This document shows, one piece after another, positions 96 through 17,443 of a stretch of 64,000 nt of DNA. Made by a program: the position numbers and the translations under genes. This DNA is from Ectothiorhodospira lacustris (GTDB lineage Bacteria; Pseudomonadota; Gammaproteobacteria; Ectothiorhodospirales; Ectothiorhodospiraceae), in the NCBI RefSeq assembly GCF_022227845.1, contig NZ_JAJNQN010000011.1, positions 1-64,000 of the forward strand, written 5' to 3'. Under the pieces are notes generated by a model, which saw only the letters and a program-made list of their open reading frames with translations, ran no database searches and was not told the origin of the DNA. The first letter of the stretch is position 1, and every line of letters starts with the position of its first letter.

Positions 96-2624
96 TCAGA
101 AGTCATATTTCAGGCTGACCCAGTAGTAGCGACCGATCTCCACACCGCTCTGCCCCGGGGTGACGGTATGGGTGCGTTCGTTGAACAGGTTGTTGATCTG
201 TAATTGGGCGGTGAGCAACGTGGAACGCGGCATTGGCTGGGCATAGCTCAGACGCAGGTCGGTGATGAAGGTGACCGGTCTGCTTTCTCGCTCGTACACA
301 TCCAGGCTCTCGTACACCACCTCGCCGCCGGGCAACTCGATGCGATTCCCTTCCACCACCCGGCCGGTGCGGTTGATGATGGAATGGCGCCCCCGATAAC
401 GGGTGTTCAGATCCACTACGACCCGCTCACCCATGGGACGGGACAGACTGAAGTTGGCCACCCAGGGACGGGAAAAATCCTCCCTCAGGATGTCCAGCTC
501 GCCGTAGCGGACACGCCTGCCCTGATAGGAGACATACTCACCGGAACCGGTGGCATCCACCGGATCGTCATAGTCGGCATTGGAGGTCCTGGTTTCCGAG
601 TAAGTCAGGTGCAGTCCCACCAGGGTCTGGCCGAACTCCCCGAACCAGGCCGTGGACAGGCCCCGGTAGCGGCTGCGTCCTTCGTTGTTCATGATGTAGT
701 AGCGGTAGCCATCGGGCTGGACAGCGGTAGTGGTGCGGGCAAATTCATCCCGGTTCTCCCGCTGCACCAGCTGCAGGTTGAACAGGCCACCCAGCAGGGC
801 CTGCTGCACACCGATCATGACTTCATCGCTGTAGGGGGTATTCAGATCATGGAAGACGTAGCGGAAGGTGCCCTCCCCTGAATCCAGTTCCCAGTCCCGG
901 ACGATGTTCTGGGTGGTCCCCCGATACTCCCGATAGAAGGGTGACCGGGCCTCCCGCAGCTTGTAGGTGAGCAGCGCCGCACCGTAATAGCGGTTCACCC
1001 CGGCCCGAACCACGGTACGGCCGTCGCCAAAGACGTCCAGGCTTCCCCGGGTGCGATAGGCCACGTCGTGGTTGCCGAGAAAGTCGTCGTGGTCGTAGCG
1101 CAGCCCGAAGGTGCCCGACAAGCGCTGCCAACCCAGGGTGGTCTCTGCGAACAGGCCGGTTTCGTTGAGGGACACCTCCACGTCATCGGCGGGATGCACG
1201 TTGCGGGTAGAGAAATACTGTTCCCGCTGCAGACAGTCGTCACTGTTGCCACGGCACTGGACCTCGCTGTTCACCACGGGATTCTGGAAAATGTAGAGAT
1301 CCTCGTCCCGCTGAAAATGGTAGCGCTGGTGATTGACCTCGGCCCCGAAACGATGACGGATCCGGACCTGGCCGACCTGTCCACCCGGGGTCTGGGCCAG
1401 CCAGCGCCCCGACAGGCTGGCCTGCTCCTTGTCGAGATCACCAAAGCCCCCCTGGCGGCTGTTGCCCACATCCGCCCGGCGCCCCCAGTCCACACTGCGG
1501 GTATTGGCCCAGTTGAAGAAATCCTTGGGGGCAGAACGGCTGTTTTCACTGTAATTCAGACCCACCCGGAACTGCTGGTCCAGGCGATCCCCGGCGTATT
1601 CCAGGTTGCCGGTCATGCTGTAGCCACCGCCTTCGATGGTGAAATCGCTGTCCTTCACATCCGTGATAAAGCGCTCGTTCCGGTAAGGGGCATAGCCAAG
1701 ACTGAAATCCAGCAACCCCCGATCCCCGGCGGGTGTGGTCAACTTCATCAGCAGATTGGTGTTTTCCTGGTCCTGGGAGCGGCTGCGCCCCAGGGTCACC
1801 TCCGGGGTAGAAGATCGGGACTGATTGATGCCCAGCACCAGCCCGGATGCCTCTCCCACTGGCGTGGAATAATTCAGCGCCAGACGATCCCGGCTGAATT
1901 CAGGGGTACCGGGGGGCTCCGGCGGCAAGGCGCCGGAATCCGGGTCCCAGTCCCGGGTAAAGGTGCGATAGCTCACCCAGTCGCTGCGGGTGGCGCTGTA
2001 GGAGACGCTGCCTTGCGGCGTTGAACCCGCACGCCGGGTCTCCACCTCCACCACACCGCCGGTAAAGCGGCTGTATTCCGCCGGGACGTTGCTGTCGAAT
2101 ACCCGGATTTCACCGATCAGCGCACTGTCAATGAACTGGGACTGCTCATGGCCGGGGATATCGTCGATGGCATTGGGTGTATTGGCCGCGGGATCCAGAC
2201 GATTGCTGATGCTTACCCCATCCAGCAGGAACTGGTTTTCATAAAAGCGCCCGCCGGAGATGGAAAAGGATTCCGGCCTCAGGTCAAACAGGGATTCCGG
2301 CGTCAGCGCCGACTCACCGAACTGGAGTCCCGGCACCAGCCGGAGTACGCCGTCCACGCTGCCGTCGGCGCCCACGAAGCGCTCGATGTAACGGGCATCG
2401 AAGCGATAACGACCGGCGGCGGTCGTTTCACCGCCCAGGGGGGTCCGATCGGTGGGGCGCACCTCGATGGTATCCAGTCGGGCGTCGGCAGGCAGTGTCA
2501 CCACCGTTGCCTCCTCCGCCTGTACCAGGGCGGGCAATCCGGAAATCACCAGGGTCAGTATCCAGACCGGGCCGGGCTTGAAGCCGGCACGGCACATCGG
2601 GCATGGATCACAGCGGTTCGTCAT
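96..2624 (-). CDS. TonB-dependent outer membrane receptor
   Basis: This is an 842-residue outer membrane transporter of the TonB-dependent family, which imports a bound ligand using energy passed from TonB-ExbBD. An N-terminal export signal ends near ALVQAEE (about residue 37). A plug domain follows, with the typical VDGVLRLVPG and FLLDGVSI segments (about residues 80-140) and GGVVEVETR at its end. A long beta-barrel then runs to the C-terminus, which ends in the expected aromatic residue (YYWVSLKYDF). The start codon overlaps the stop of the upstream lipoprotein gene (ATGA), so the two are translationally coupled. The ligand cannot be read from the sequence, but the upstream Fur-like site points to iron or another scarce nutrient. 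Confidence 0.88.
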   Translation of the reverse strand: MTNRCDPCPMCRAGFKPGPVWILTLVISGLPALVQAEEATVVTLPADARLDTIEVRPTDRTPLGGETTAAGRYRFDARYIERFVGADGSVDGVLRLVPGLQFGESALTPESLFDLRPESFSISGGRFYENQFLLDGVSISNRLDPAANTPNAIDDIPGHEQSQFIDSALIGEIRVFDSNVPAEYSRFTGGVVEVETRRAGSTPQGSVSYSATRSDWVSYRTFTRDWDPDSGALPPEPPGTPEFSRDRLALNYSTPVGEASGLVLGINQSRSSTPEVTLGRSRSQDQENTNLLMKLTTPAGDRGLLDFSLGYAPYRNERFITDVKDSDFTIEGGGYSMTGNLEYAGDRLDQQFRVGLNYSENSRSAPKDFFNWANTRSVDWGRRADVGNSRQGGFGDLDKEQASLSGRWLAQTPGGQVGQVRIRHRFGAEVNHQRYHFQRDEDLYIFQNPVVNSEVQCRGNSDDCLQREQYFSTRNVHPADDVEVSLNETGLFAETTLGWQRLSGTFGLRYDHDDFLGNHDVAYRTRGSLDVFGDGRTVVRAGVNRYYGAALLTYKLREARSPFYREYRGTTQNIVRDWELDSGEGTFRYVFHDLNTPYSDEVMIGVQQALLGGLFNLQLVQRENRDEFARTTTAVQPDGYRYYIMNNEGRSRYRGLSTAWFGEFGQTLVGLHLTYSETRTSNADYDDPVDATGSGEYVSYQGRRVRYGELDILREDFSRPWVANFSLSRPMGERVVVDLNTRYRGRHSIINRTGRVVEGNRIELPGGEVVYESLDVYERESRPVTFITDLRLSYAQPMPRSTLLTAQLQINNLFNERTHTVTPGQSGVEIGRYYWVSLKYDF

Positions 2625-5600
2625 GCGTCACAACCGGCGCAATAGGGGGTACGATCCTGGGTATCGGGAATGCCATCCCCGTCGATGTCGTCATCCAGGG
2701 ACAGGGGAGACGCGGCACGATCCGCCGCACTGCTGCCGGGACTAAAGAAGTCCGGACGCCCGTCGCCGTCAAAGTCGAAGCGAGCCAGGGCCGTGCCCGG
2801 GAAGTCATCGGCGGTGCTGATGCCGTTGGCAATATTCAGCAACTGCCGGTGACGCTCCGGCGCCGTTTCAATGCCCATGGCCACCATCCTGGCCGTCTCA
2901 TACTGGCGGGCGGAGGCCAGCCAATTGACCACTGAGTTGATCTGGGTGGTGCGGTCGTTGGCGGCAAACAAAGCGTCGATCATTGCCAGCGATCCCGGCC
3001 AGGTACCCGGCAGGGCGTCATCCCCCGACGCCAGCATGCGTGCCCGTTCCCGGGCCATGGCCACCTGATGGCGCTGGGTCTCATCGGCCCAACCGGTCCG
3101 GGTGATGGTCTGGCGAAGATCCCGGGCGACCCGGACGTAGCTCTCCATCAGCGAGTCACGTCTTTGTCCGGTGCGGATAAAGGCCACCAGGTCCAGCGCC
3201 TGATTGATGGCGGCCTGATCGCTGGAGGAGGTTGCCACCTGGGTAAGCATCTCCACCGCCTCGTCCAGCGCCGACAGGGCTGCTTCGGGATCGCCACCGC
3301 TGCTGCGCAGCAGGGCCACTTCCATGAGGTTACGGATGCGGGCCACCGGATTGCTCAACACGCTGCCCAGGGCATGGAGGCGATCGATCAGCTCTGCCTC
3401 TCCCGCCATGTCCAGTTGCTGATAAGCCGCGGCCAGGGACCCGGCCACCCACAGCAAATCATCCGTTGTCACGTTTGCATCGTGAAGGACTGAGTCCACA
3501 TGCCGACGGCAAGACTGCATGCGATCAGAGGCCAGCGCCTGTTGATCCATGCGACTGAGGATCAACGCGGTCTTCCGGCACCCCTGGTCCAGAAAATTCC
3601 GTGCGGAGATGAGTTGATGGGTCAACTCATCCACAAACCGCTCGGACATGGCCAGTTCCCAGGCTGCGTCCATCACCTGCCTGGCTTCATCCAGGGCACC
3701 TTGACGCCAGAGCAGCACGGCCAGGTGAGGCGTGCCGACATCACTGGCTCCCATACCCACCTGGGTCAATTGCGTGATGGCGGCCTGTACGGTGTCGGCC
3801 TGCGCCGCCACCTGGTTGATGGCCCCTTCAACATCACCGCCGAGCGCACGATCAAGGGCCTGATAAAGCACCGCATTATCCCGGGCCGAGTCGGCGTTGG
3901 ACTCGTTGATCGGACGGACATGTCCCTCAATCCAGGCCAGATAGGTCTGAATGTCTCCCAGTTCGCCATGAATCGGCGCCATCCGGGGGCTCATGGTGGC
4001 ACCATAGGTCAGATTGCAATCCGTGGTGGCCAAGCCCCGAAAATCATCAATGGCCTGCCGCATACCCGTGGTGCTACCCAGACGCCGATAGAAATCGGCG
4101 TAGGCCGTCACCATCAGGGTCTTCATGGCCTCGCAACGACCAGCCAGCGGCTGACGACCGGTCCCCAGGGTGGCCTCCCGGAAAAAATCCACCGCGTTCA
4201 GCGCATCGTTGAACGCCCTACCCGACAGACCCGTCGCTTCGGCCACATCCACGGCCGCCGAGGCAGCATCTCTCAAGCTGACCATAATCCGGCCATAAGC
4301 GGTGGTATGGGGCTGCCCCCGCTGGGATTCGATAAACTCCCGCACGGCCAGAAGGGCCGTCTCGGCATCGTCCCTGAATCCGGCGTTGAGCAGATCGCTG
4401 TTGAGGGACTGGAAGAACGCGGCGTCATCACCCTCCAGATTGCTGATGCCCTTGCCTTCCCTCAAGGCGGTTTCGTAGGTCTGACGTGAGGCATTCCAGT
4501 ACACGCGGGCCGTTTCAAGATCGTTGACCCCACTCAACGCCCGGGCCACCTGCAGCTGTGCCATGGCCCGCTCGGTGGGCTGGAAGATGGCGGCCCGCAG
4601 GGTCAGTTCGGCCTCATCCAGCAGTCCCGCCGTGGCGAGATTGTAGGCGTTGGCCCGGAACATGGGGTCCAACACGCCGTCATCCAGCACCCCATCGAAC
4701 AGGCGTTCGGACAGATAAGTGGGAGACACATCGGAGCGGAAGAAGTAGGCGGCCCGGGCATCGTTGTCCATGCCCAGGGTCTCGCCGCCGGCCAGGGGAA
4801 TGGTATGGTCGATCACCCGCAGGGCGGCCAGATCCCGGAGGATGACATCATGACGGATGTCATCCAGGGGCAAGTCAGCCGCCGGATCGCTCAGATCGCC
4901 AGGCATCTCATGCACCTGGAACACGTAGCGGATGATGTTGAGCAGGGCCGGTCCCTCGGCGGGGACGCCTCGTCTCCCCATGCCTTCCCAAAGGGCACCG
5001 GACAAAGTGACCAGGTGGTTGTCATGGATGGGTTGCCCCGCAATCTCGAAGAAGCGGGTCAGGCCATGCCCCAGGTTCTGCAACGCCAACGCACGGATCA
5101 TCTCCTGGGCGGATGCCGCGGCATCCAGGCTCAGCAGATATTCGGCGCGTTCGGCCACGCCTTCAAGCCTGTCACCCACCGGACCAGCGTGATCCAGGGC
5201 AAGGCGCTGGGCCACCTGGTCCAGGCGCCCGGGGGCCATGCCGTTCATGGCGTCCTCCAGCAGCTGCCACGGATCGGCCTGGCCTTCCAGTGCCACCAGG
5301 ATTTCGGTCATCAGCAGGCTGGCCCGCTGGGCGGAGGCATCACCGGCCGGATCGGCCATGACCACCGCGGGACTCAGAGCCAGACGGGAGGCCACGGCGG
5401 ACAGGGCCTGGTCCCGACTCATGCCACCCTCACGCATGGATCGATCCACCAACGTGGTCAATGGTGATACCAGCATGTCATCAACGGCACCGCCTTCGAG
5501 CGGCGCGCTCAACATCAGATTGCCCAGGACCTGGCCCGTCACCGTGTCGATCCCGCCCCGCGCCAGGATCCGGTGCACCTCCCTGGCCAGGTCTTGCGTC

Positions 5601-5842
5601 AGGGTCACACTGAAGCGGCCATCGCTGCCGGTGAGTTCCAAGGTGGACAGGGCATCGCCCTGGGCATTCACCAGCCTTACCGCGGCCCCCTCGATCGGCG
5701 GGTCCGTCACCAGGCCGGACAGATGCACAGAAGCGTCTCCCCCCGAGGAGGACCCTCCCCCGCCCGTGCAGGCGACGATAAGGGCAAGGGACAGTACCGC
5801 AGCGGACGTCCGCAGGGACGAAACAATGACAGGAAAACCCAT
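2621..5842 (-). CDS. Very large lipoprotein with TPR-like repeats and calcium-loop tail
   Basis: About 1073 residues from the chosen ATG at 5840-5842, which has a GGTGAGG ribosome site; an in-frame ATG lies at 5857 and a further upstream start at 5893. A signal peptide ends in the lipobox ALIVAC, followed by a Gly/Ser-rich linker. Next comes a small beta domain of the carboxypeptidase-regulatory type (LVTDPPIEGAAVRL..DGRFSV). A long helical region with TPR-like repeats (for example LATAGLLDEAELTLRAAI) fills most of the protein. The C-terminus carries two acidic loops (DFDGDGRPD and DDDIDGDGIPD) like thrombospondin type 3 calcium loops. I do not recognise a named family. Coupling to the receptor gene suggests a surface partner that captures a ligand for it; that role is inferred. 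Confidence 0.75.
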   Translation of the reverse strand: MGFPVIVSSLRTSAAVLSLALIVACTGGGGSSSGGDASVHLSGLVTDPPIEGAAVRLVNAQGDALSTLELTGSDGRFSVTLTQDLAREVHRILARGGIDTVTGQVLGNLMLSAPLEGGAVDDMLVSPLTTLVDRSMREGGMSRDQALSAVASRLALSPAVVMADPAGDASAQRASLLMTEILVALEGQADPWQLLEDAMNGMAPGRLDQVAQRLALDHAGPVGDRLEGVAERAEYLLSLDAAASAQEMIRALALQNLGHGLTRFFEIAGQPIHDNHLVTLSGALWEGMGRRGVPAEGPALLNIIRYVFQVHEMPGDLSDPAADLPLDDIRHDVILRDLAALRVIDHTIPLAGGETLGMDNDARAAYFFRSDVSPTYLSERLFDGVLDDGVLDPMFRANAYNLATAGLLDEAELTLRAAIFQPTERAMAQLQVARALSGVNDLETARVYWNASRQTYETALREGKGISNLEGDDAAFFQSLNSDLLNAGFRDDAETALLAVREFIESQRGQPHTTAYGRIMVSLRDAASAAVDVAEATGLSGRAFNDALNAVDFFREATLGTGRQPLAGRCEAMKTLMVTAYADFYRRLGSTTGMRQAIDDFRGLATTDCNLTYGATMSPRMAPIHGELGDIQTYLAWIEGHVRPINESNADSARDNAVLYQALDRALGGDVEGAINQVAAQADTVQAAITQLTQVGMGASDVGTPHLAVLLWRQGALDEARQVMDAAWELAMSERFVDELTHQLISARNFLDQGCRKTALILSRMDQQALASDRMQSCRRHVDSVLHDANVTTDDLLWVAGSLAAAYQQLDMAGEAELIDRLHALGSVLSNPVARIRNLMEVALLRSSGGDPEAALSALDEAVEMLTQVATSSSDQAAINQALDLVAFIRTGQRRDSLMESYVRVARDLRQTITRTGWADETQRHQVAMARERARMLASGDDALPGTWPGSLAMIDALFAANDRTTQINSVVNWLASARQYETARMVAMGIETAPERHRQLLNIANGISTADDFPGTALARFDFDGDGRPDFFSPGSSAADRAASPLSLDDDIDGDGIPDTQDRTPYCAGCDA

Positions 5843-5891
5843 GATCGGCCTCACCATAATAAACACGATCAGGAATTTACAATAAAATACC

Positions 5892-5910
5892 AATGATAAC
5901 CAATATCATT
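5892..5910 (-). promoter_or_regulatory. Fur-box-like operator upstream of the lipoprotein-receptor operon
   Basis: AATGATA-ACCAA-TATCATT is a perfect 7-bp inverted repeat. In the 7-1-7 Fur model (TGATAAT-n-ATTATCA) it matches 12 or 13 of 14 informative positions. It lies about 50 bases upstream of the lipoprotein start, in an AT-rich stretch that probably holds the promoter, and in the 206-bp gap shared with the divergent telA gene. Iron-dependent repression of the receptor operon follows naturally but is inferred. Confidence 0.65.
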
Positions 5911-6048
5911 TCGATATATTTTCAGGCACCACTTCTTCAGGGCGAATGATCACATAGGGTATACACTAGGCCCAGGAGCATCGACGCCTCTTCCCGGCGG
6001 CCTTCTCGGGCAATTGATGCGACGTTGGATCAAAACTCTGGAGGCAGC

Positions 6049-7269
6049 ATGAACCCCAACCACTCAGAGCCCCCCGCAAACCCGGCGTTCAACCTTTCCC
6101 TGCCGCCGCTTGCGGAAGTGGAGACGGAGATCAAACGGGACTCGGACCCTGAGCAGACCATCGACGACCCGGAACTCCTGCGCATTGCGGATACCTTCCT
6201 GTCGGAGTTGCTGAAAGACCAGGATCAGGCGCAGATTGACCCCCGGCAACGCCGGGCTGTGGACGAGATGGGGCTGGACATACAGCGTCAGGCGGCCCAT
6301 CGCAGCAAGTTGTTGCAGACCCCCATCCGCAAGCTGGCCCATCAGGGGGATGAGGGTGGGCCGGTGGCCCGTTCCCTGATCGATCTGCGTACCCGCATGC
6401 TGGAACTGGACCCCCGCAATCACAATCTGAGCCGTGAAGGGATCGGCCGCATCCTGGCCTTGATCCCCGGGGTCGGCACCCCCCTGCAGCGTTATTTCCA
6501 CAGGTTCGAAACCGCCCAGGAGGCCCTGGACGCCATCATCAGGGACCTGGAGGCGGGCAGGGACATGCTGCACCGGGACAATCTCACCCTGAGCGATGAC
6601 CAGCAGTCCCTGCGGGAGAGCCTGGTGCAGCTCCAGCGGCAGATCGCCCTGGGACGGATCATCGACCGCAAGCTGGCCGGCGAGGCCGCCACCCTGCCCC
6701 AGGACGCCGCCAAGCGCCGATTCCTGGAAGAGGAGCTGCTGTTTCCCCTGCGCCAGCGGCTCGTCGATCTGCAGCAACAACTGGCCGTCAGTCAGCAGGG
6801 CATCCTCGCCCTGGAGGTGGTGATCCGCAATAACCGGGAACTGATGCGGGGTGTTGACCGGGCCATCAATGTGACCGTCTCGGCGCTGAATGTGGCGGTG
6901 ACGGTGGCCCTGGCCCTGGCCAATCAGCGGCTGGTGCTGGATCGGGTCGAGGCCCTCAACACCACCACCTCCAGCCTCATCGCCGGTACCGCCGAGGCCC
7001 TGCGAACCCAGGGGGTGGAGATCCAGAACCGGGCCGCCTCCACGGTGCTGGACATGGAGCAACTCGAATCCGCCTTTACCAACGTCATCGGCGCCATCGA
7101 CGAAGTCTCCCGCTATCGCCGCGAGGCCCTGCCCAGGCTGGATGCCCAGATTGACCGTCTGGAGGCGCTGGCGGCCCAAGGGGATGCGGCGATCCGGCGC
7201 ATGGACAAGGGTGACGGGATCGAGATGGACAAGGTGGTGGCCCGGCAGGGCGCAAATGATATCCCGTAG
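6049..7269 (+). CDS. telA: TelA/YaaN family toxic-anion resistance protein
   Basis: About 406 residues from the ATG at 6049, which follows a strong GGAGG site; an upstream in-frame start at 6025 is less likely. The family signature region is present: an IPGVGTPLQRYFHRFETAQ segment, then long alpha-helical coiled coils (DMLHRDNLTL..., VQLQRQIALGRIIDRKL). TelA proteins are cytoplasmic and have been linked to tellurite and other envelope-stress resistance, though the biochemical activity is unclear. The gene stands alone, divergent from the lipoprotein operon, and is followed by a repeat array. No ter genes are nearby. Confidence 0.85.
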   Translation: MNPNHSEPPANPAFNLSLPPLAEVETEIKRDSDPEQTIDDPELLRIADTFLSELLKDQDQAQIDPRQRRAVDEMGLDIQRQAAHRSKLLQTPIRKLAHQGDEGGPVARSLIDLRTRMLELDPRNHNLSREGIGRILALIPGVGTPLQRYFHRFETAQEALDAIIRDLEAGRDMLHRDNLTLSDDQQSLRESLVQLQRQIALGRIIDRKLAGEAATLPQDAAKRRFLEEELLFPLRQRLVDLQQQLAVSQQGILALEVVIRNNRELMRGVDRAINVTVSALNVAVTVALALANQRLVLDRVEALNTTTSSLIAGTAEALRTQGVEIQNRAASTVLDMEQLESAFTNVIGAIDEVSRYRREALPRLDAQIDRLEALAAQGDAAIRRMDKGDGIEMDKVVARQGANDIP

Positions 7270-7675: not shown

Positions 7676-8038
7676 ATGCCTTCGAACCCGACCTCCGACC
7701 TGCCTGTCCACCACGCGGTGATCGCCTACTTCTGGGCGCCCTGGCATCTTCGCCGGATGCCGAGGGCCACGCCGGAAGACCGGATGACTCGGGCCGTCTG
7801 GTGCCGGGATCACTGCGCCACCCTGGCGGGACGCTGGATCCTGCTGGGCTTTGCCCTGTGGATGATCCAGATTTCCCCGCTGGGCTTTGTGTTCGTGATC
7901 GGGGGCTGGCCGGTACTGGGCCTGCTGTTTCCGGTGACCTTCATGGTGGGCATCGGTCACCTGGTGGCCCATCTGGTGGCCCAGAAAAAGGCCGGACCAC
8001 CGAAGATCGATCCGCCGGTGGAACGGGACGAGGAATGA
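7676..8038 (+). CDS. Small two-helix membrane protein, unknown function
   Basis: 120 residues with two clear hydrophobic segments: WILLGFALWMIQISPLGF (about 54-71) and FVIGGWPVLGLLFPVTFMVG (about 73-92). A His-rich start and charged ends flank them. I do not recognise the family. The frame has the GC-rich codon bias of neighbouring genes, and a longer overlapping frame (7576-8121) lacks any protein-like character. The ribosome site is weak, so the start is uncertain. Confidence 0.55.
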   Translation: MPSNPTSDLPVHHAVIAYFWAPWHLRRMPRATPEDRMTRAVWCRDHCATLAGRWILLGFALWMIQISPLGFVFVIGGWPVLGLLFPVTFMVGIGHLVAHLVAQKKAGPPKIDPPVERDEE

Positions 8039-8155
8039 GCGACCGAACCCGCCGCCGCCGTATCCCTAACTCTCATGAATCTTGGTGGCGATACACCCTC
8101 GATGATGAAGGACGGCCATAGGGCGTGTCTGTGACTGAACCCGGCTTCTTTCACG

Positions 8156-9169
8156 TTAACGGTTGCGCCAGCGCTGGAATGAGGGGTATGCCTCGTAACC
8201 CCGGGTGAGCACATATTCCAGCACCGCCTGCAGGCGATGCAGGCGGATCACCGAGTCCACCCGCAGGACCTCCTCTCCCAATTCATCGAAGAACACCAAG
8301 GTGGGGGCATAGAACAGGTCCATCTCCTCGGCCCACTGTCGGGCCGTCAGGTGACGGCCATTGGGTGTCACCACCGGGGTGTCGGACCACATGTCCAGCT
8401 GCACCACATCGAACAGGGACAACAGTTTCAGCACCTCAGGATCACCCAGCGGCTCGGTGTGCAGCACGTCGCAGGCATGACATTCCCCCTGCTCGAAAAA
8501 CACCACCAGGGGTCGTTCGGCCGCCACCTGCGAGCGATCCAGCTGATGGGGAGGCGCACTGAAAAAGTCCCGATGATTAAGATCATCGGCATCAAAGCGC
8601 GGCGGCGGATCGGCCCGGGCCAGGTAATCTCGGAAGCTCTCGCGCTGGTAGTGGGCGTCGGCCACGTATTCCAGCGCGGCACGGAAACGGTAGGGGGAAT
8701 GGTAGCCCCGCAGGATGAAGACTGGCTCCCCTTCCAGATCATGGAAGAGGAAGGAGGGGGTAAAGTTCAGGCGCTGCCGGATGGCGAACTCCCGTTCCGT
8801 GAGTGACCGACCTTCCAGGGTGATCATGGTACGACTGCCCAGCACGTCCAGGGCCACCACCAGAAAGTGCCGACGGGTGTATTCGACGATGTCCGGCTGC
8901 TGGAAATTGACCTGGAACAGGGCCTCGCAGTAGGGACAGTCATCCATGCCCAGATAGACCACCAGCCCGCGCTTGCCCTCATCGCGGGCTGTCTGCAGGT
9001 CCTCGCCCAGGTCCAGGAACGACAGATGGAACCAGTCCGGGGCCTGCAGGCCGATGAGCCTGGGACGGTCATCGATCGGCGGCTGGTCGTCAGCGCAGAC
9101 GACACCGGCCAGGATCAGGACCAGCCATCCGAGAATCAGTCGGGCAAGGCGGGATGACAGTCTCGGCAC
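8156..9169 (-). CDS. Periplasmic protein with two thioredoxin-like domains
   Basis: 337 residues starting at a GTG with a clear GGAGG site seven bases upstream. A signal peptide ends near GVVCADD. The first thioredoxin-like domain carries CPYC (in MDDCPYCEALF, about residues 77-80); the second carries CHAC (in GECHACDVL, about residue 230). Each is followed by the expected TPSF or APTL strand with the cis-proline type motif. SoxW and related periplasmic thioredoxins look like single copies of this unit, so a disulfide-handling or reducing role in the periplasm is likely. It lies 19 bases after serS in the same direction and may be cotranscribed with it. Confidence 0.75.
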   Translation of the reverse strand: MPRLSSRLARLILGWLVLILAGVVCADDQPPIDDRPRLIGLQAPDWFHLSFLDLGEDLQTARDEGKRGLVVYLGMDDCPYCEALFQVNFQQPDIVEYTRRHFLVVALDVLGSRTMITLEGRSLTEREFAIRQRLNFTPSFLFHDLEGEPVFILRGYHSPYRFRAALEYVADAHYQRESFRDYLARADPPPRFDADDLNHRDFFSAPPHQLDRSQVAAERPLVVFFEQGECHACDVLHTEPLGDPEVLKLLSLFDVVQLDMWSDTPVVTPNGRHLTARQWAEEMDLFYAPTLVFFDELGEEVLRVDSVIRLHRLQAVLEYVLTRGYEAYPSFQRWRNR

Positions 9170-9188
9170 GGTTCAACCTCCAGCGGGA

Positions 9189-10574
<1,386 letters not shown>

Positions 10575-10611
10575 TCAGACCTGAATGCCCGGCAAGCGCA
10601 AGGAGTCCGCC

Positions 10612-12129
10612 ATGGCTGACCATGATCCCGCTCGCGACCCGCTCTATCCCGACCCTCGGCGCCAGGTCTCCCCCCAGGAGCGAGACGCCCTGATTGCGGC
10701 CCTGGACCAGGTGCTCCCCAAGGACGCCCTGCTCCACCACGGGGAAGACCTGCGGCCGTACGAGTGCGACGGCCTGTCCGCCTATCGGCGTCTGCCCCTG
10801 GCGGTGATCCTGCCCCATGATCTGGACCAGGCCCGGGCCGCCCTCGGCATCTGCCGGGAGCGAGGCATCCCGGTGACGGCCCGGGGCGCCGGCACCGGCC
10901 TGTCCGGCGGTGCCCTGCCCTTTCCCGACGGCGTGCTGCTGAGCCTGGCCCGCTTCAACCGCATCCTGGAACTGGACCCGAACCGCCGTATCGCCCGAGT
11001 CCAGCCCGGGGTCCGCAATCTGGCCATTTCCGAGGCTGCCACACCCCATGGTCTCTACTATGCCCCCGATCCGTCTTCCCAAATCGCCTGCTCCATCGGC
11101 GGCAACGTGGCGGAAAACTCCGGCGGGGTGCACTGCCTGAAATACGGCCTGACGGTCCACAATGTGCTGGCCGTGCAGATGCTGACCATCGATGGTGAAC
11201 TGCTCACCTTGGGTGGCGAGGCCCTGGACAGCCCGGGCTATGACCTGCTGGCCCTGGTCCACGGCTCCGAAGGCATGCTCGGCATCATTACCGAGGTCAC
11301 GGTCAGGCTGCTGCCCAAACCGGAACGGGCACAGGTGCTGATGGCGGCCTTTGATGATGCCCAGAGCGCTGGCGAGGCGGTGGCCGGCCTGATCGGGGCC
11401 GGGATCATCCCCGGCGGCCTGGAAATGATGGACAACGACGCCATCCGGGCGGCGGAGGATTTCGTTCATGCGGGCTATCCGGTGGACGCCGCCGCCATCC
11501 TGCTCTGTGAGCTGGACGGCACCGAAGCGGAGGTCTCGGAACAGGTGATACAGGTACGCAACCTGCTGCTGGAAAGCGGCGCCACCGAGGTGCGCACGGC
11601 CCGGGACGAACAGGAACGCATGCGCTTCTGGGCCGGCCGCAAGGCCGCCTTCCCGGCGGTAGGCAGGATCTCCCCGGATTACTACTGCATGGACGGCACC
11701 ATTCCCCGGCGCCATCTGGGTAAGGTCCTCGGGGGCATCGCCGAGCTATCCCGCGCCTACGGGCTGCGGGTGGCCAACGTCTTTCATGCCGGTGACGGCA
11801 ACCTGCACCCGCTGATCCTGTTCGATGCCAATGTGTCCGGAGAGCTGGAAAAGGCCGAGGAACTGGGCGGGCAGATCCTGGAGCTGTGCGTGGAGGTGGG
11901 CGGCACCATCACCGGGGAGCACGGGGTGGGCATCGAAAAGATCAACCAGATGTGCGTGCAGTTCCAGCCGGCGGAGCTGACCCAGTTTCATGCAGTCAAG
12001 GCGGCCTTTGACCCGAAAGGCCTGCTCAATCCGGGCAAAGCAGTGCCCACCCTGCATCGCTGCGCCGAATTCGGCGCCATGCACGTGCACCGCGGGCAGC
12101 TCCCCTTTCCCGATCTGCCTCGATTCTAG
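10612..12129 (+). CDS. glcD: Glycolate oxidase subunit GlcD
   Basis: 505 residues from the ATG at 10612, which follows AAGGAG. It is an FAD-linked oxidase: the FAD-binding segment ARGAGTGLSGGALPF and the SIGGNVAENSGGVHCLKYGL block are near-identical to my memory of E. coli GlcD, and the C-terminal GEHGVGIEKINQM completes the family. GlcD works with GlcE and GlcF to oxidise glycolate to glyoxylate at the membrane. Neither partner is adjacent here; they must lie elsewhere, or the protein uses other partners. Malate synthase G at 18.6-20.8 kb would consume the glyoxylate. Confidence 0.9.
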   Translation: MADHDPARDPLYPDPRRQVSPQERDALIAALDQVLPKDALLHHGEDLRPYECDGLSAYRRLPLAVILPHDLDQARAALGICRERGIPVTARGAGTGLSGGALPFPDGVLLSLARFNRILELDPNRRIARVQPGVRNLAISEAATPHGLYYAPDPSSQIACSIGGNVAENSGGVHCLKYGLTVHNVLAVQMLTIDGELLTLGGEALDSPGYDLLALVHGSEGMLGIITEVTVRLLPKPERAQVLMAAFDDAQSAGEAVAGLIGAGIIPGGLEMMDNDAIRAAEDFVHAGYPVDAAAILLCELDGTEAEVSEQVIQVRNLLLESGATEVRTARDEQERMRFWAGRKAAFPAVGRISPDYYCMDGTIPRRHLGKVLGGIAELSRAYGLRVANVFHAGDGNLHPLILFDANVSGELEKAEELGGQILELCVEVGGTITGEHGVGIEKINQMCVQFQPAELTQFHAVKAAFDPKGLLNPGKAVPTLHRCAEFGAMHVHRGQLPFPDLPRF

Positions 12130-12546: not shown

Positions 12547-14451
12547 ATGGGTTATGCAGAGGTTTACGCACGCGCAGTAAACGATCCCGAAGGCTTCTGG
12601 GCCGAGGCCGCGCAGGCACTCACCTGGTCCAAGCCGTTTGAGAAAGTGCTGGATGACAGTGCCGCCCCCTTCTACCGCTGGTTCGCCGGCGGGGAGATCA
12701 ATACCTGTTATAACGCCGTGGACCGGCACGTGGAAAACGGCCGTGGTGAGCAGACGGCCATCATCTACGACAGCCCGGTCACGGACACCAAGCGCTGCAT
12801 CAGCTTCCGCGAATTACAGGACCAGGTCGCACGCTTCGCCGGCGCCCTGGCCGACATGGGTGTGACCAAGGGTGACCGGGTCATCATCTACATGCCGATG
12901 GTGCCCGAGGCCCTGGTGGCCATGCTGGGCTGTGCCCGCCTGGGGGCGATCCACTCCGTGGTGTTCGGCGGTTTCTCTGCCCGAGAGCTGGCCACCCGCA
13001 TTGACGACGCCACCCCCAAGGTGGTGGTGGCCGCCTCCTGCGGCATCGAACCCTCCCGGGTAGTGAAATACAAACCGCTGCTGGACCAGGCCATCGAGAT
13101 GTCCACCCACAAGCCTGAGCGGACCCTGATCCTGCAGCGTCCCCAGTCCCCCTGCGACCTGATCCCGGGACGGGACATGGACTGGACCGCGGCCATGGCC
13201 GCCGCGGCCCCTCATGACTGCGTCCCCGTCTCCGCCACCGACCCTATCTACATCCTGTACACCTCCGGCACCACCGGCAAGCCCAAGGGGGTGGTGCGTC
13301 ACAACGGCGGTCATGCGGTGGCCCTTAACTGGAGCATGAAGCATATCTACGGCATGGAACCCGGCGAGGTGTTCTGGGCCGCCTCCGACGTGGGTTGGGT
13401 GGTGGGACACTCCTACATCGTCTACGGTCCCCTGCTCTACGGCTGCACCACGGTGGTCTACGAGGGCAAGCCGGTGGGCACCCCGGACCCCGGCGCCTTC
13501 TGGCGGGTGATCGAGGAATACAAGGTCTCGGTGATGTTCACCGCCCCCACCGCCTTCCGTGCCATCAAGAAGGAAGACCCCGGCGCCGAACACCTCAAGC
13601 GCTACAACCTGGATCAGTTCCGCGCCCTGTTCCTGGCCGGTGAGCGTTGCGATCCGGACACCCTGGAATGGGCACAGAAGATCCTGCAGCGTCCGGCCAT
13701 CGACCACTGGTGGCAGACCGAGACCGGCTGGGCCATCGCCGGGAACTTCCTGGGGATCGAACAGCTGCCCATCAAGCCCGGTACCGCCGGCAAGCCCACC
13801 CCGGGTTATGACGTGCAGATCCTGGATGACAGCGGCAAGCCGGTATCCGCCGGAGAGATGGGGCGGATCATGATCAAGCTGCCCCTGCCACCTGCCTGTC
13901 TGCCCACCCTGTGGAACAACGACGCACGCTTCAAGGAGTCCTATCTCAGCGCCGAACCCGGTTACTACCTCACCGGAGACTCAGGCTACATGGACGAGGA
14001 CGGTTTCCTGTACGTGATGGGGCGGATCGACGACACCATCAATGTGGCCGGGCATCGCCTGTCCACCGGTGCCATGGAAGAGGTGCTGGCCTCTCATCCG
14101 GCCGTGGCCGAATGTGCGGTCATCGCCGTGGCGGATGAACTCAAGGGCTCGCTGCCCATGGGTCTGGTGGTGATGAAATCGGGTGTGGACCAGGCCCCGG
14201 AGGCCCTGAGCAAGGAACTGGTGAATCTGGTACGCGAGCGCATCGGACCCGTGGCCGCCTTCAAGCTGGTGGCCGTGGTCAGCCGCCTGCCCAAGACCCG
14301 TTCGGGCAAGATCCTGCGGGCCATCATGCGCAAGATCGCCGACAACGAGGCCTATCAGACCCCGGCCACCATCGATGACCCGGCGATCCTGGACGAGATC
14401 CGGGAAAGCCTGAGCCGGATGGGATATGCAGAGGGTCGGGAAACGGCCTGA
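12547..14451 (+). CDS. prpE: Propionyl-CoA synthetase
   Basis: 634 residues from the ATG at 12547 (ribosome site CAGGAG). It is an acyl-CoA synthetase of the acetyl-CoA synthetase family: the AMP-binding loop YTSGTTGKPKGVV, the WWQTETGW motif and the C-terminal catalytic lysine segment KTRSGKILR are all present. Propionate plus ATP and CoA gives propionyl-CoA, the entry step of the 2-methylcitrate cycle. The prpE assignment over acsA rests on the downstream prp genes and on sequence features (GYAEVYARAVNDPEGFW start, RIDDTINVAGHRLSTGAMEE). Confidence 0.88.
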   Translation: MGYAEVYARAVNDPEGFWAEAAQALTWSKPFEKVLDDSAAPFYRWFAGGEINTCYNAVDRHVENGRGEQTAIIYDSPVTDTKRCISFRELQDQVARFAGALADMGVTKGDRVIIYMPMVPEALVAMLGCARLGAIHSVVFGGFSARELATRIDDATPKVVVAASCGIEPSRVVKYKPLLDQAIEMSTHKPERTLILQRPQSPCDLIPGRDMDWTAAMAAAAPHDCVPVSATDPIYILYTSGTTGKPKGVVRHNGGHAVALNWSMKHIYGMEPGEVFWAASDVGWVVGHSYIVYGPLLYGCTTVVYEGKPVGTPDPGAFWRVIEEYKVSVMFTAPTAFRAIKKEDPGAEHLKRYNLDQFRALFLAGERCDPDTLEWAQKILQRPAIDHWWQTETGWAIAGNFLGIEQLPIKPGTAGKPTPGYDVQILDDSGKPVSAGEMGRIMIKLPLPPACLPTLWNNDARFKESYLSAEPGYYLTGDSGYMDEDGFLYVMGRIDDTINVAGHRLSTGAMEEVLASHPAVAECAVIAVADELKGSLPMGLVVMKSGVDQAPEALSKELVNLVRERIGPVAAFKLVAVVSRLPKTRSGKILRAIMRKIADNEAYQTPATIDDPAILDEIRESLSRMGYAEGRETA

Positions 14452-14457
14452 AGCAAA

Positions 14458-14486
14458 GCCCTTCTCCCCTCAGGGGGGAGAAGGGC
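14458..14486. terminator. Hairpin after prpE
   Basis: GCCCTTCTCCCC / GGGGAGAAGGGC forms a strong stem just after the prpE stop. There is no U-run, and the arms match the dispersed CCCTTCTCCCC repeat seen at four other places, so it may be a repeat copy acting as an mRNA 3' hairpin rather than a classical terminator. Confidence 0.5.
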
Positions 14487-14569
14487 CTCTGGCTCCGGCA
14501 AACAGGGACAGGCGCAGATTGTCACCAGAAATACCACTTTATCTCCAGGAAAAGGCCTGATACCCTAAT

Positions 14570-14581
14570 ATTGTCAACAAT
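14570..14581 (+). promoter_or_regulatory. GntR/PrpR-type operator dyad
   Basis: ATTGTCAACAAT differs at one base from the ATTGTCGACAAT consensus I recall for GntR-type PrpR. It ends 10 bases before the regulator ATG at 14592 and overlaps a -10-like TAATAT (14566-14571). A second copy lies before prpE. Autoregulation of the gntR-prpB-prpC unit is the natural reading. Confidence 0.6.
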
Positions 14582-14591
14582 CGGACGACAT

Positions 14592-15350
14592 ATGCCAGAT
14601 TTCAACGACCAACTCGGGCAACAGGGCGTCACCTTGGCGGATCGGGTCTTCGCGCGCCTGCGCCAGGCCATCGTCGAGGGTGAGATCCCTTCGGGCACCA
14701 AGATCAGCGAACCGGAACTGGCCGGCGAATACGGCATCAGCCGTGGCCCGCTCAGGGATGCCATCGGTCGTCTGGAAGCCTGCCACCTGGTGGAACGTCG
14801 CCCCAATGTGGGTGCCCGGGTGGTCTCCCTCACCCAGGAAGACCTGCTGGAACTCTACCTGCTGCGAGAAGCCCTGGAGGGCATGGCCGCCCGTCTGGCC
14901 GCGGAGCGCATGTCCGGCCGGGACATCGATGAGCTGCGCAAGCTGCTCAAGCAGCACCAGGAACGGGCGGAACTGCAGGAAGGCATCGCCTATTTCCAGA
15001 CCGAGGGCGATCTGGACTTTCATTACCGCATCATCAAGGCCAGCGGCAATGCCCGCCTGATCAAGCTGCTGTGCGACGACCTCTACCACCTGATGCGCAT
15101 GTACCGTTTTCAGTTCGGCATGGCCAGCTCCCGGGCCCTGATCGCCTTTCGGGAACATGGCCACATCGTCGAGGCCATTGCCGACCGGGACCCGGAGATG
15201 GCAGAACTCATCATGCGCCGCCATATCCGCAGTTCACGGATCAACGTGGAACTGCTGTTTGACGAGAAGGCGCCCAAGGGAGCCAAGGCCACCCCGGCCA
15301 TCCGCTCCGCCGGCGCCGGGAACAGCGCCGGCGCACCTCCGCCGCTCTGA
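14592..15350 (+). CDS. prpR: GntR-family (FCD) regulator of propionate catabolism
   Basis: 252 residues from the ATG at 14592; a TTG seven codons upstream is also in frame. An N-terminal winged helix-turn-helix (LRQAIVEGEIPSGTKISEPELAGEYGISRGPLRDAI) precedes an FCD ligand-binding domain with the typical LYLLREALEGMAARLAAE helix and metal-site histidines (DLDFHYRI, HGHIVEAI, MRRHI). It sits 36 bases before prpB in the same direction. With operator-like dyads before itself and before prpE, it is most likely the local repressor that responds to a cycle intermediate such as 2-methylcitrate. The gene name is by context. Confidence 0.8.
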   Translation: MPDFNDQLGQQGVTLADRVFARLRQAIVEGEIPSGTKISEPELAGEYGISRGPLRDAIGRLEACHLVERRPNVGARVVSLTQEDLLELYLLREALEGMAARLAAERMSGRDIDELRKLLKQHQERAELQEGIAYFQTEGDLDFHYRIIKASGNARLIKLLCDDLYHLMRMYRFQFGMASSRALIAFREHGHIVEAIADRDPEMAELIMRRHIRSSRINVELLFDEKAPKGAKATPAIRSAGAGNSAGAPPPL

Positions 15351-15386
15351 CCACCCCGCATCATCCCCTCAACACAAGGAGATCCA

Positions 15387-16271
15387 ATGACCGAGCCATC
15401 CACGCCAGGCGCGCGTCTGCGTCGCGCCGTTGAAGAAGAGCACCCGCTGCAAGTGGTGGGCACCATCAATGCCTATCACGCGATGATGGCCGAACACGTG
15501 GGCTACCGGGCACTGTACCTGTCCGGTGGTGGTGTTGCCGCCGGCTCCCTGGCCCTGCCGGACCTGGGTATCAGCACCCTGCACGACGTGCTGGAAGACG
15601 TGCGCCGCATCACCTATGTGACCGATGTCCCCCTGCTGGTGGATGCGGATACCGGTTTTGGCCCCAGCGCCTTCAACATCGGGCGCACGGTCAAGGAACT
15701 GATCCGCGCCGGTGCTGCCGGCTGCCATATCGAGGACCAGGTGCAGGCCAAGCGTTGCGGCCATCGCCCCGGCAAGGCCATCGTCACCAAGGAAGAGATG
15801 GTGGACCGCATCAAGGCCGCTACCGACGCCCGTGACCGGGATTTCGTCATCATGGCCCGCACCGATGCCCTGGCCGTGGAAGGCATGGACTCCGCCATCG
15901 AACGGGCCGTGGCCTGCGTCGAGGCCGGCGCCGACATGATCTTCCCCGAGGCCATCAACACTCTGGAGCAGTACCAGCAGTTCGTAGACGCCGTCGGCGT
16001 CCCGGTACTGGCCAATATCACCGAGTTCGGCAGTACCCCCCTTTTCACCACTGAAGCGCTCAAGGGCGTGGGCGTGAGCCTGGTGCTCTACCCCCTGTCC
16101 GCGTTCCGCGCCATGAACAAGGCGGCCCTGAACGTGTTCGAGGCCATCCGCCGCGACGGCACCCAGCAGGGCGTCATCGATACCATGCAGACCCGCATGG
16201 AACTCTACGAGCACCTGGGCTACCACGCCTACGAAGAAAAACTGGACCAGCTATACCGCAAAGGCGGCTAA
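15387..16271 (+). CDS. prpB: 2-methylisocitrate lyase
   Basis: 294 residues with a strong ribosome site (AAGGAG). It belongs to the isocitrate lyase/PEP mutase superfamily: the catalytic KRCGH motif is present (in [12 protein letters not shown]), with DADTGFG for Mg binding. It cleaves 2-methylisocitrate to pyruvate and succinate. It forms one transcription unit with the GntR gene before it and prpC after it (8-base gap). Confidence 0.95.
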
Positions 16272-16279
16272 GACGGAGA

Positions 16280-17443
16280 ATGATGAAAATGAGTGAGACC
16301 GAAATCGCCAAGCCCAAACCGAAAAAGTCGGTAGCCCTGTCGGGCACGACCGCCGGCAATACCGCCGTCTGCACCGTGGGCCGTACCGGCAACGACCTGC
16401 ATTACCGGGGCTATGACATCCTGGACTTTGCCGATGAGGCGGAGTTCGAGGAAATTGCCCACCTGCTGATCCACGGCACCCTGCCCAATGCCGCCGAGTT
16501 GGCCCGCTACAAGGCCCGTCTGAAATCCATGCGCGGTCTGCCGGCCGCCCTGCAGAGCGCCCTGGAGCAGATTCCGCCCTCCGCCCACCCCATGGACGTG
16601 ATGCGCACCGCCGTGTCCATGCTGGGCACCCTGGAGCCGGAAAAGGAAGACATGAACGTGGCCGGTGCCCGCCTGATCGCCGACCGCCTGTTGGCCTGCC
16701 TGGGTTCCGCCCTGCTCTACTGGTACCACTTTGCCCATAACGGCCGCTGCATCGACGTGGAGACCGATGACGACAGCGTGGGCGGTCACTTCCTGCACCT
16801 GATGCACGGCAGCACCCCACCCGAGGCATGGGTGCGGGCCATGCACACCTCACTGAACCTGTATGCGGAGCACGAGTTCAACGCCTCCACCTTCACTGCC
16901 CGCGTGGTGGCCGGTACCAACTCGGATATCTACTCCGCCATCACCGGCGCCGTCGGCGCACTGCGGGGTCCCAAGCACGGCGGTGCCAACGAGGCGGCCT
17001 GCGACATCCAGCAGCGCTATCACAACGCCGACGAGGCCGAAGCGGACATCCGCGAGCGCGTGGCCCGCAAGGAGATCGTGATCGGCTTCGGCCACCCGGT
17101 CTACACCATCAGCGACCCGCGCAACAAGGTCATCAAGGACGTGGCCCGCCGCCTGTCCGAGCAGGAGGGCTCCATGCGCATGTATGACGTGGCCGATCGC
17201 CTGGAAACGGTGATGTGGGACCTGAAGAAGATGTTCCCCAATCTGGACTGGTTCTCCGCCGTGTCCTACCACATGATGGGCATCCCCACCGCCCTGTTCA
17301 CGCCGATCTTCGTCATTGCCCGTACCACCGGCTGGGCGGCTCACGTGATCGAGCAGCGTCAGGACGGCAAGATCATCCGTCCCAGCGCCAACTATGTCGG
17401 CCCGGAAAACCAGTCCTGGCTGCCCCTGGACAAGCGGGCCTGA
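16280..17443 (+). CDS. prpC: 2-methylcitrate synthase
   Basis: 387 residues of the citrate synthase family in the methylcitrate branch. The catalytic histidines lie in [11 protein letters not shown] and GFGHPVY, and an aspartate lies in the FPNLDWFSA region. It condenses propionyl-CoA with oxaloacetate. It is shorter than, and clearly distinct from, gltA at 47.7 kb. Several ATGs are possible at the start (16280, 16283, 16289). A strong terminator follows, so no prpD or acnD-prpF gene is cotranscribed here. Confidence 0.94.

Follow-up and report, generated by a model that had tools for sequence, protein, structure and literature searches.

Gene content of the locus

The window – the whole stretch of DNA that was analysed, 64,000 nucleotides long – comes from Ectothiorhodospira lacustris, a salt-loving purple sulfur bacterium, and is the start of contig C3 in an assembly of 49 contigs. 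Near its beginning, a gene for a large lipoprotein, lipoprotein A (P0001), is followed by one for a TonB-dependent receptor (P0002), and both are preceded by a Fur-box-like site (Table 1). An earlier note, made from the sequence alone, had described a 1073-residue lipoprotein sharing an ATGA junction with a TonB receptor; the ORF, its lipobox and the four bases at the junction all agree with that description. The note does not mention lipoB, a second lipoprotein gene whose start lies at the contig end.

Table 1. Features of the lipoprotein–receptor operon and of lipoprotein A
Feature	Position	Strand	Details
lipoB start, 35 codons of the second lipoprotein gene	2–106	minus	runs off the contig end; overlap with the receptor stop
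TonB-dependent receptor (P0002), FusA/YddB family, 842 aa	96–2624	minus	ATG at 2624, stop at 96
ATGA overlap	2621–2624	minus	lipoprotein stop / receptor start
Lipoprotein A (P0001), 1073 aa	2621–5842	minus	ORF: ATG at 5842, TGA at 2621
Fur-box-like site	5889–5910		ACCAATGATAACCAATATC at 5889–5907; 7-bp dyad at 5892–5910
P0001 lipobox	signal peptide		IVAC
P0001 beta-sandwich	residues 38–125		predicted structure
P0001 helical domain	residues 127–344		predicted structure
P0001 TPR-like superhelix, helical hairpins	about residues 360–1013		predicted structure
P0001 Asp-rich calcium-type tail	residues 1012–1066		sequence alignment

The divergent neighbour of lipoprotein A (6025–7269) looks by eye like a TelA-type toxic-anion-resistance gene and is kept in two related loci, L028 and L031. 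Among named organisms, Ectothiorhodospira shaposhnikovii (93%; L002, L004) and E. marina (70%; L003) are the nearest relatives.

A lipoprotein family without a name

P0001 had no match in NCBIfam and only sub-threshold matches in Pfam (TPR_12, carboxypeptidase regulatory-like, Ig-like and bMG3). The family is nameless in both databases, and the earlier note had not recognised it; neither database assigned it to a known, unrelated family. Membership of the SusD group was rejected – no SusD family matched in Pfam at E values up to 1 – and SusD was absent among the structural matches listed for the model by Foldseek and VIA-align.

The beta domain and long TPR-like region proposed from the sequence are both predicted in an AlphaFold model of medium confidence (7 alignment rows, mean pLDDT 64.9, pTM 0.41), in which the tail has no confident structure. 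A seven-row lipoprotein profile matched consensus TPR designs in the PDB (best E 8e-7). Foldseek and VIA-align gave mainly generic alpha-alpha repeat proteins, the best structural match being VPS35 (Z 15.3, 257 residues, rmsd 4.0), while residues 39–131 resembled fragment 3e8v (Z 9.1, 75 residues, rmsd 2.1).

The TPR region and tail can be aligned over all 16 lipoprotein rows, with 22 invariant columns that include a cysteine pair (C755 and C778 in P0001 numbering) and tail aspartates. The motif D1023-x-D-x-D-G and most of D1050..D1063 are invariant across the 16, in accord with the calcium-loop tail that had been proposed. The N-terminus differs among lineages: the lipoproteins of L034, L064, L066, L070 and L120 begin with bacterial Ig/cadherin-like domains, not with the Ectothiorhodospira-type N-terminus (four of the four non-Ectothiorhodospira-type proteins scanned, with L120 the fifth). 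A lipobox pattern matched in 21 of the 22 lipoproteins compared, missing that of L068 (LFGC); in the L118 protein it caught an earlier stretch, and LAGC comes after. In none of these rows is the lipid cysteine followed by aspartate, as expected for outer-membrane sorting.

The receptor belongs with FusA and YddB

P0002 had only a sub-threshold plug match in Pfam. Searched against the PDB with phmmer, it matched only FusA (4zgv, E 7e-68) and YddB (6ofr, 6e-42). A 13-row receptor profile reached the same two at 3e-135 and 7e-94, and the next TonB receptors followed at 6e-5. On these searches the generic label "TonB receptor" was replaced: P0002 is, judging by sequence, a member of the family of FusA, the ferredoxin receptor, and E. 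coli YddB. Two of 13 receptor matches in plasmid-collection records are annotated yddB. A structure model, inspected for a 22-strand barrel with extended extracellular loops, had a mean pLDDT of 26.

FusA imports plant ferredoxin; its grip on this protein comes from extended extracellular loops, and the extracellular loops are the most variable part among FusA homologues (PMC5095587, sections covered here). Grinter et al. (2019) placed FusA homologues in 24 clusters across the Proteobacteria, with FusC homologues in 12 of the 24 and cytochrome c peroxidases in multiple FusC-less cases (PMC6793856, main text).

Lipoprotein and receptor occur together

The pair was found at 26 loci in 25 genomes (the window, L028–L032, L034, L063–L071, L116–L123, the two contig ends L124 and L125 of genome G640, and L142). 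At 24 of the 26, both genes lie on one strand and the lipoprotein gene comes directly before the receptor gene, at a distance of −53 to 123 nt; the L120 genes are neighbours that diverge, and those of G640 lie on the two contig ends. Several loci are near relatives (L117/L119, L121/L123 and the Ectothiorhodospira loci), so the counts are not counts of independent events. Chance or artefact as the source of the pair was rejected, the pair being intact in the window and its relatives.

The fairest test of co-occurrence is the order sample of 325 genomes. A full-length lipoprotein was found in 11, and a receptor at E < 1e-290 in the same 11, of which three supplied rows to the profiles and eight were new to them. 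In fourteen further genomes of this sample the FusA-like receptors score 3e-58 to 3e-75, and a full-length lipoprotein is absent. In the family sample both genes were found in 10 of 118 genomes (lipoprotein rows were in the profile), and within Ectothiorhodospira five of ten genomes have both genes and five have neither. The class sample (369 genomes) included one, G216, with a weaker FusA-like receptor beside a peroxidase-like ORF and no lipoprotein, an arrangement seen also at L072 of G509. In the phylum sample (398 genomes), the full-length lipoprotein was found in three: the window genome, G184 and G992, the last a new case with lipoprotein, receptor and peroxidase in a row. Every full-length lipoprotein falls within the class of the window. 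Profile rows came partly from genomes that were later searched, and the absences in the samples are soft, since few candidates were scored per genome (2–3 in the large samples).

Two sets of partial matches to P0001 were not counted as members. Weak N-terminal matches in nine class genomes and in G010 were read as an N-terminal module that these lipoproteins share and that comes without the TPR part; the matches in G461, G496, G630, G871 and G952 covered the tail only.

In a tree of 31 receptors, nine of them without a lipoprotein, the 22 linked to one all lie on one side of a branch with support of 99/97 and form one clade. The window rows apparently entered MAFFT as gapped rows (length 1265); MAFFT strips gaps from its input, and these rows were placed with their close relative. 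Pairwise distances among lipoproteins and among receptors were correlated (r 0.91; the best of 2000 permutations reached 0.34). The lipoprotein tracks one receptor clade and evolves in parallel with it, and the two genes form a unit. This bears out the suggestion that they belong together, and the profile search for co-occurrence that had been proposed as a check found the pair well beyond the window.

Fur-like sites precede the operons

The perfect 7-bp dyad reported before both genes (AATGATA-N5-TATCATT) is present ca. 50 bp before the lipoprotein ATG. Three such sites with at most three mismatches occur in the window against 0.36 expected, a number reached in 0 of 100 shuffles. A better Fur-type reading lies 3 bp over, with ACCAATGATAACCAATATC matching the E. 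coli Fur consensus at 14 of 19 positions; taken alone, this site is modest (P 0.03). It is kept in L028 and in L031 despite differing L031 flanks; the L031 dyad has one mismatch and the Fur-type core is unchanged.

For each operon, the 120 bp ahead of the lipoprotein start were scanned for the 19-mer closest to the Fur consensus. Over 12 operons (that of the window and one from each of the loci L032, L034 and L063–L071; L028–L031 were left out), the matches summed to 162, against 134 in 500 dinucleotide shuffles (sd 3.4, maximum 146). A second set of eight operons found later, which left out L119 and L142, gave 106 against 89 (sd 2.9, maximum 98). Single operons vary, with P > 0.15 in five of the 12 and three of the eight. 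A peptidase gene opens the operon at L029 and L030, and the match upstream of it is 13/19 and 12/19. By this measure, Fur-box-like sites are enriched before the operons in both sets. The link to iron is likely, because the receptor falls in the FusA/YddB family, Fur-like sites precede the operons, and a haem-uptake cluster adjoins the operon in one relative (L029).

That cluster (L029:1–4869: a haem receptor, ChuX/HutX and a periplasmic binding protein) is transcribed divergently from the lipoprotein operon. Just upstream of the G992 lipoprotein operon, on the same strand (L142:11249–12178), lies a 309-aa ORF whose C-terminus looks AraC-like by eye; it is perhaps the regulator of that operon.

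Partner enzymes

At 18 of the 26 loci, the receptor gene is followed by a gene for a di-haem CCP/MauG-type enzyme with at least two CxxCH motifs; two genes intervene in L070, and a short one in L125. L122 encodes an M16 protease, a DUF4920 protein and a PepSY-TM protein in place of the peroxidase, and is the only one of the 26 loci with an M16 protease. No partner enzyme is adjacent at L032 or L120. Where a FusA-like receptor lacks the lipoprotein, an M16 protease gene is often close by (L126, L127, L131).

The enzyme of L034, scanned as the one example with NCBIfam, scored well below the cut-offs of both equivalogs (MbnH, 214 of 363 bits; MauG, 195 of 444) and well above that of Pfam CCP_MauG (182 bits, cut-off 25.6). 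An MbnP/MbnH copper system was rejected on these scores.

The Ectothiorhodospira loci carry lipoB and lack a peroxidase. A search for CCP_MauG found nothing in the window genome, and the downstream side of the operon there is truncated by the contig end. No FusC-type M16 protease lies beside the receptor at L028–L031, nor is any neighbouring ORF there of M16 size, except an S9 peptidase (PF00326, checked against Pfam) at L029:5184–7943, directly before lipoprotein A, and its counterpart before lipoprotein A at L030:13091–15841, judged by ORF size and start. Against the lasso-peptide isopeptidase model, the L029 peptidase gave a weak, sub-threshold 119 bits (cut-off 400).

A DUF4920 and PepSY-TM-like pair recurs beside FusA-type receptors at L070:4139–5162, L122:13284–14403 and L126:7889–8951 (checked against Pfam in L070 and L122, recognised by a look-alike start in L126). 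The pair could provide a reduction step.

Comparison with known import systems

The Fus system of Pectobacterium has the same receptor family and an iron context, and the L122 relative shares its M16 protease. The Fus operon consists of fusA, fusB (TonB-like), fusC and fusD, with no lipoprotein in the sections of PMC5095587 covered here, whereas the present operons include a gene for a TPR lipoprotein, and in most of them a cytochrome c peroxidase takes the place of the protease. The receptor family is also that of YddB/PqqL and of the FusA-like clusters in Grinter et al., where peroxidase genes likewise lie beside FusC-less FusA homologues; the words "lipoprotein" and "TPR" have no occurrences in that main text (PMC6793856).

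A TonB receptor gene next to one for a TPR-bearing outer-membrane lipoprotein is also found in SusC/SusD and RagA/RagB; here the receptor is of the FusA type, the lipoprotein is about twice as long, and the phylum is different. TbpA/TbpB and other surface-lipoprotein receptor pairs likewise combine a receptor with a lipoprotein and take iron from proteins, but P0001 has no TbpB-type Pfam match, and its predicted helical repeats differ from the beta-barrel lobes of TbpB.

The suggestion that the system was perhaps undescribed stands, within the searches made here, for the lipoprotein partner. It does not hold for the receptor family and its cytochrome c peroxidase link, which were already published in 2019 (PMC6793856, main text). 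A TPR lipoprotein as a fixed FusA-type partner was not found in the literature searched (for PMC6793856, its main text), and no lipoprotein partner appears in the text covered of PMC7567364, PMC5095587, PMC12702245, PMC11658791 and PMC6793856. Many related bacteria have this gene pair as well, which points to a lipoprotein component of FusA-type importers of which no description was found.

Proposed function and alternatives

We favour, with a probability of about 0.5, an importer that takes up an iron-bearing protein under Fur control and in which the lipoprotein is the partner that captures or handles the cargo. From the sites, Fur would repress the operon while iron is plentiful; when iron is scarce, the cell would make the FusA/YddB-type receptor and the large outer-membrane lipoprotein. 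By analogy with FusA, the receptor may bind and pull in a small iron-bearing protein or protein fragment, and the lipoprotein, held by its lipid anchor with the TPR superhelix and calcium-type tail reaching out, may capture this cargo or guide it at the receptor. Inside, in other lineages, the di-haem cytochrome c peroxidase or M16 protease encoded beside the receptor would free the iron, and an S9-peptidase-type gene lies there in two Ectothiorhodospira relatives. Several points speak against this importer: the window genome lacks a CCP_MauG match, the only M16-sized protease genes beside the operon at the Ectothiorhodospira loci are the S9 peptidase genes of L029 and L030, the window site is modest alone, and the lipoprotein model is of medium confidence. 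In E. coli, moreover, yddB and pqqL deletions had no growth defect in iron-limited LB (PMC6793856, main text).

The side of the membrane on which the lipoprotein lies separates this reading from a serious, if rather unlikely, rival, a periplasm-facing TPR scaffold under the receptor that hands the imported protein to the iron-freeing peroxidase or protease. Outer-membrane lipoproteins can face the periplasm, and those of Gammaproteobacteria face inwards by default; TPR superhelices are common docking scaffolds, and most loci link the lipoprotein gene to processing enzymes of periplasmic type. The Ig/cadherin-like N-termini of most lineages and the calcium-type tail would suit the outside better, though neither is proof, and FusA-like systems with M16 proteases work without a lipoprotein. 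An outer-face position is preferred because of these domains and tail, and because lipoprotein-less FusA-like receptors often have M16 protease genes nearby. The same cadherin-like domains and tail would fit a calcium-dependent adhesin or structural surface protein that merely shares the promoter, which is highly improbable given how exactly the presence of the lipoprotein tracks one receptor clade (325 genomes) and the parallel evolution of the two.

An iron-regulated system could also take up ligands of other kinds than iron proteins, such as peptides, haem-peptides, siderophore-like molecules or other metal complexes. MauG/MbnH-like enzymes serve copper systems too. The L029 operon adjoins haem uptake, and its S9 peptidase is weakly like a lasso-peptide isopeptidase. 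The receptor family is the sole indicator of a protein ligand, and extracellular loops are what differs most among FusA homologues (PMC5095587). FusA binds whole ferredoxin, YddB has the same large binding site (PMC5095587 and PMC6793856, sections covered here), and the L122 relative, like Fus, encodes an M16 protease; we regard ligands other than an iron protein as improbable.

The import of an iron-bearing protein also has a bolder form, to which we give little credence: a giant TPR surface lipoprotein, of gammaproteobacterial origin independent of SusD, would cap the FusA-type receptor and feed it folded iron proteins, from which the di-haem peroxidase would strip iron by redox chemistry, not proteolysis. 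If true, the capped receptor and iron release by a peroxidase would be a new architecture for whole-protein import.

The import of whole proteins, as by FusA-type receptors, is rare, and for most of these receptors neither ligand nor helper is known. A lipoprotein dedicated to a single receptor clade offers a handle, as bait, for finding the ligand. Its pairing with the receptor suggests that a two-component outer-membrane import machine is possible outside the Bacteroidota, the loci offer a case in which a peroxidase may replace an iron-freeing protease, and a lipoprotein family missing from Pfam and NCBIfam now has a boundary.

The second lipoprotein gene

In four relatives (L028–L031), lipoB follows the receptor gene with an 11-nt overlap, and its product is 36–44% identical to lipoprotein A. 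All that was found of lipoB in the window genome is the first 35 codons and, on contig C20, the last 19. The C20 end (L062:5838–5919) fuses a signal-peptide-like stretch to the lipoB tail, so the gene appears to be internally deleted or misassembled in this genome.

The two lipoprotein genes of L029 (A, 8027–11239; B, 13757–17104) have 98–100% DNA identity over ca. 450 bp of the N-terminal region, a near-identity absent from L028 and L030, and mostly 47–63% after about 1200 bp. From the sequence, this pattern looks like gene conversion.
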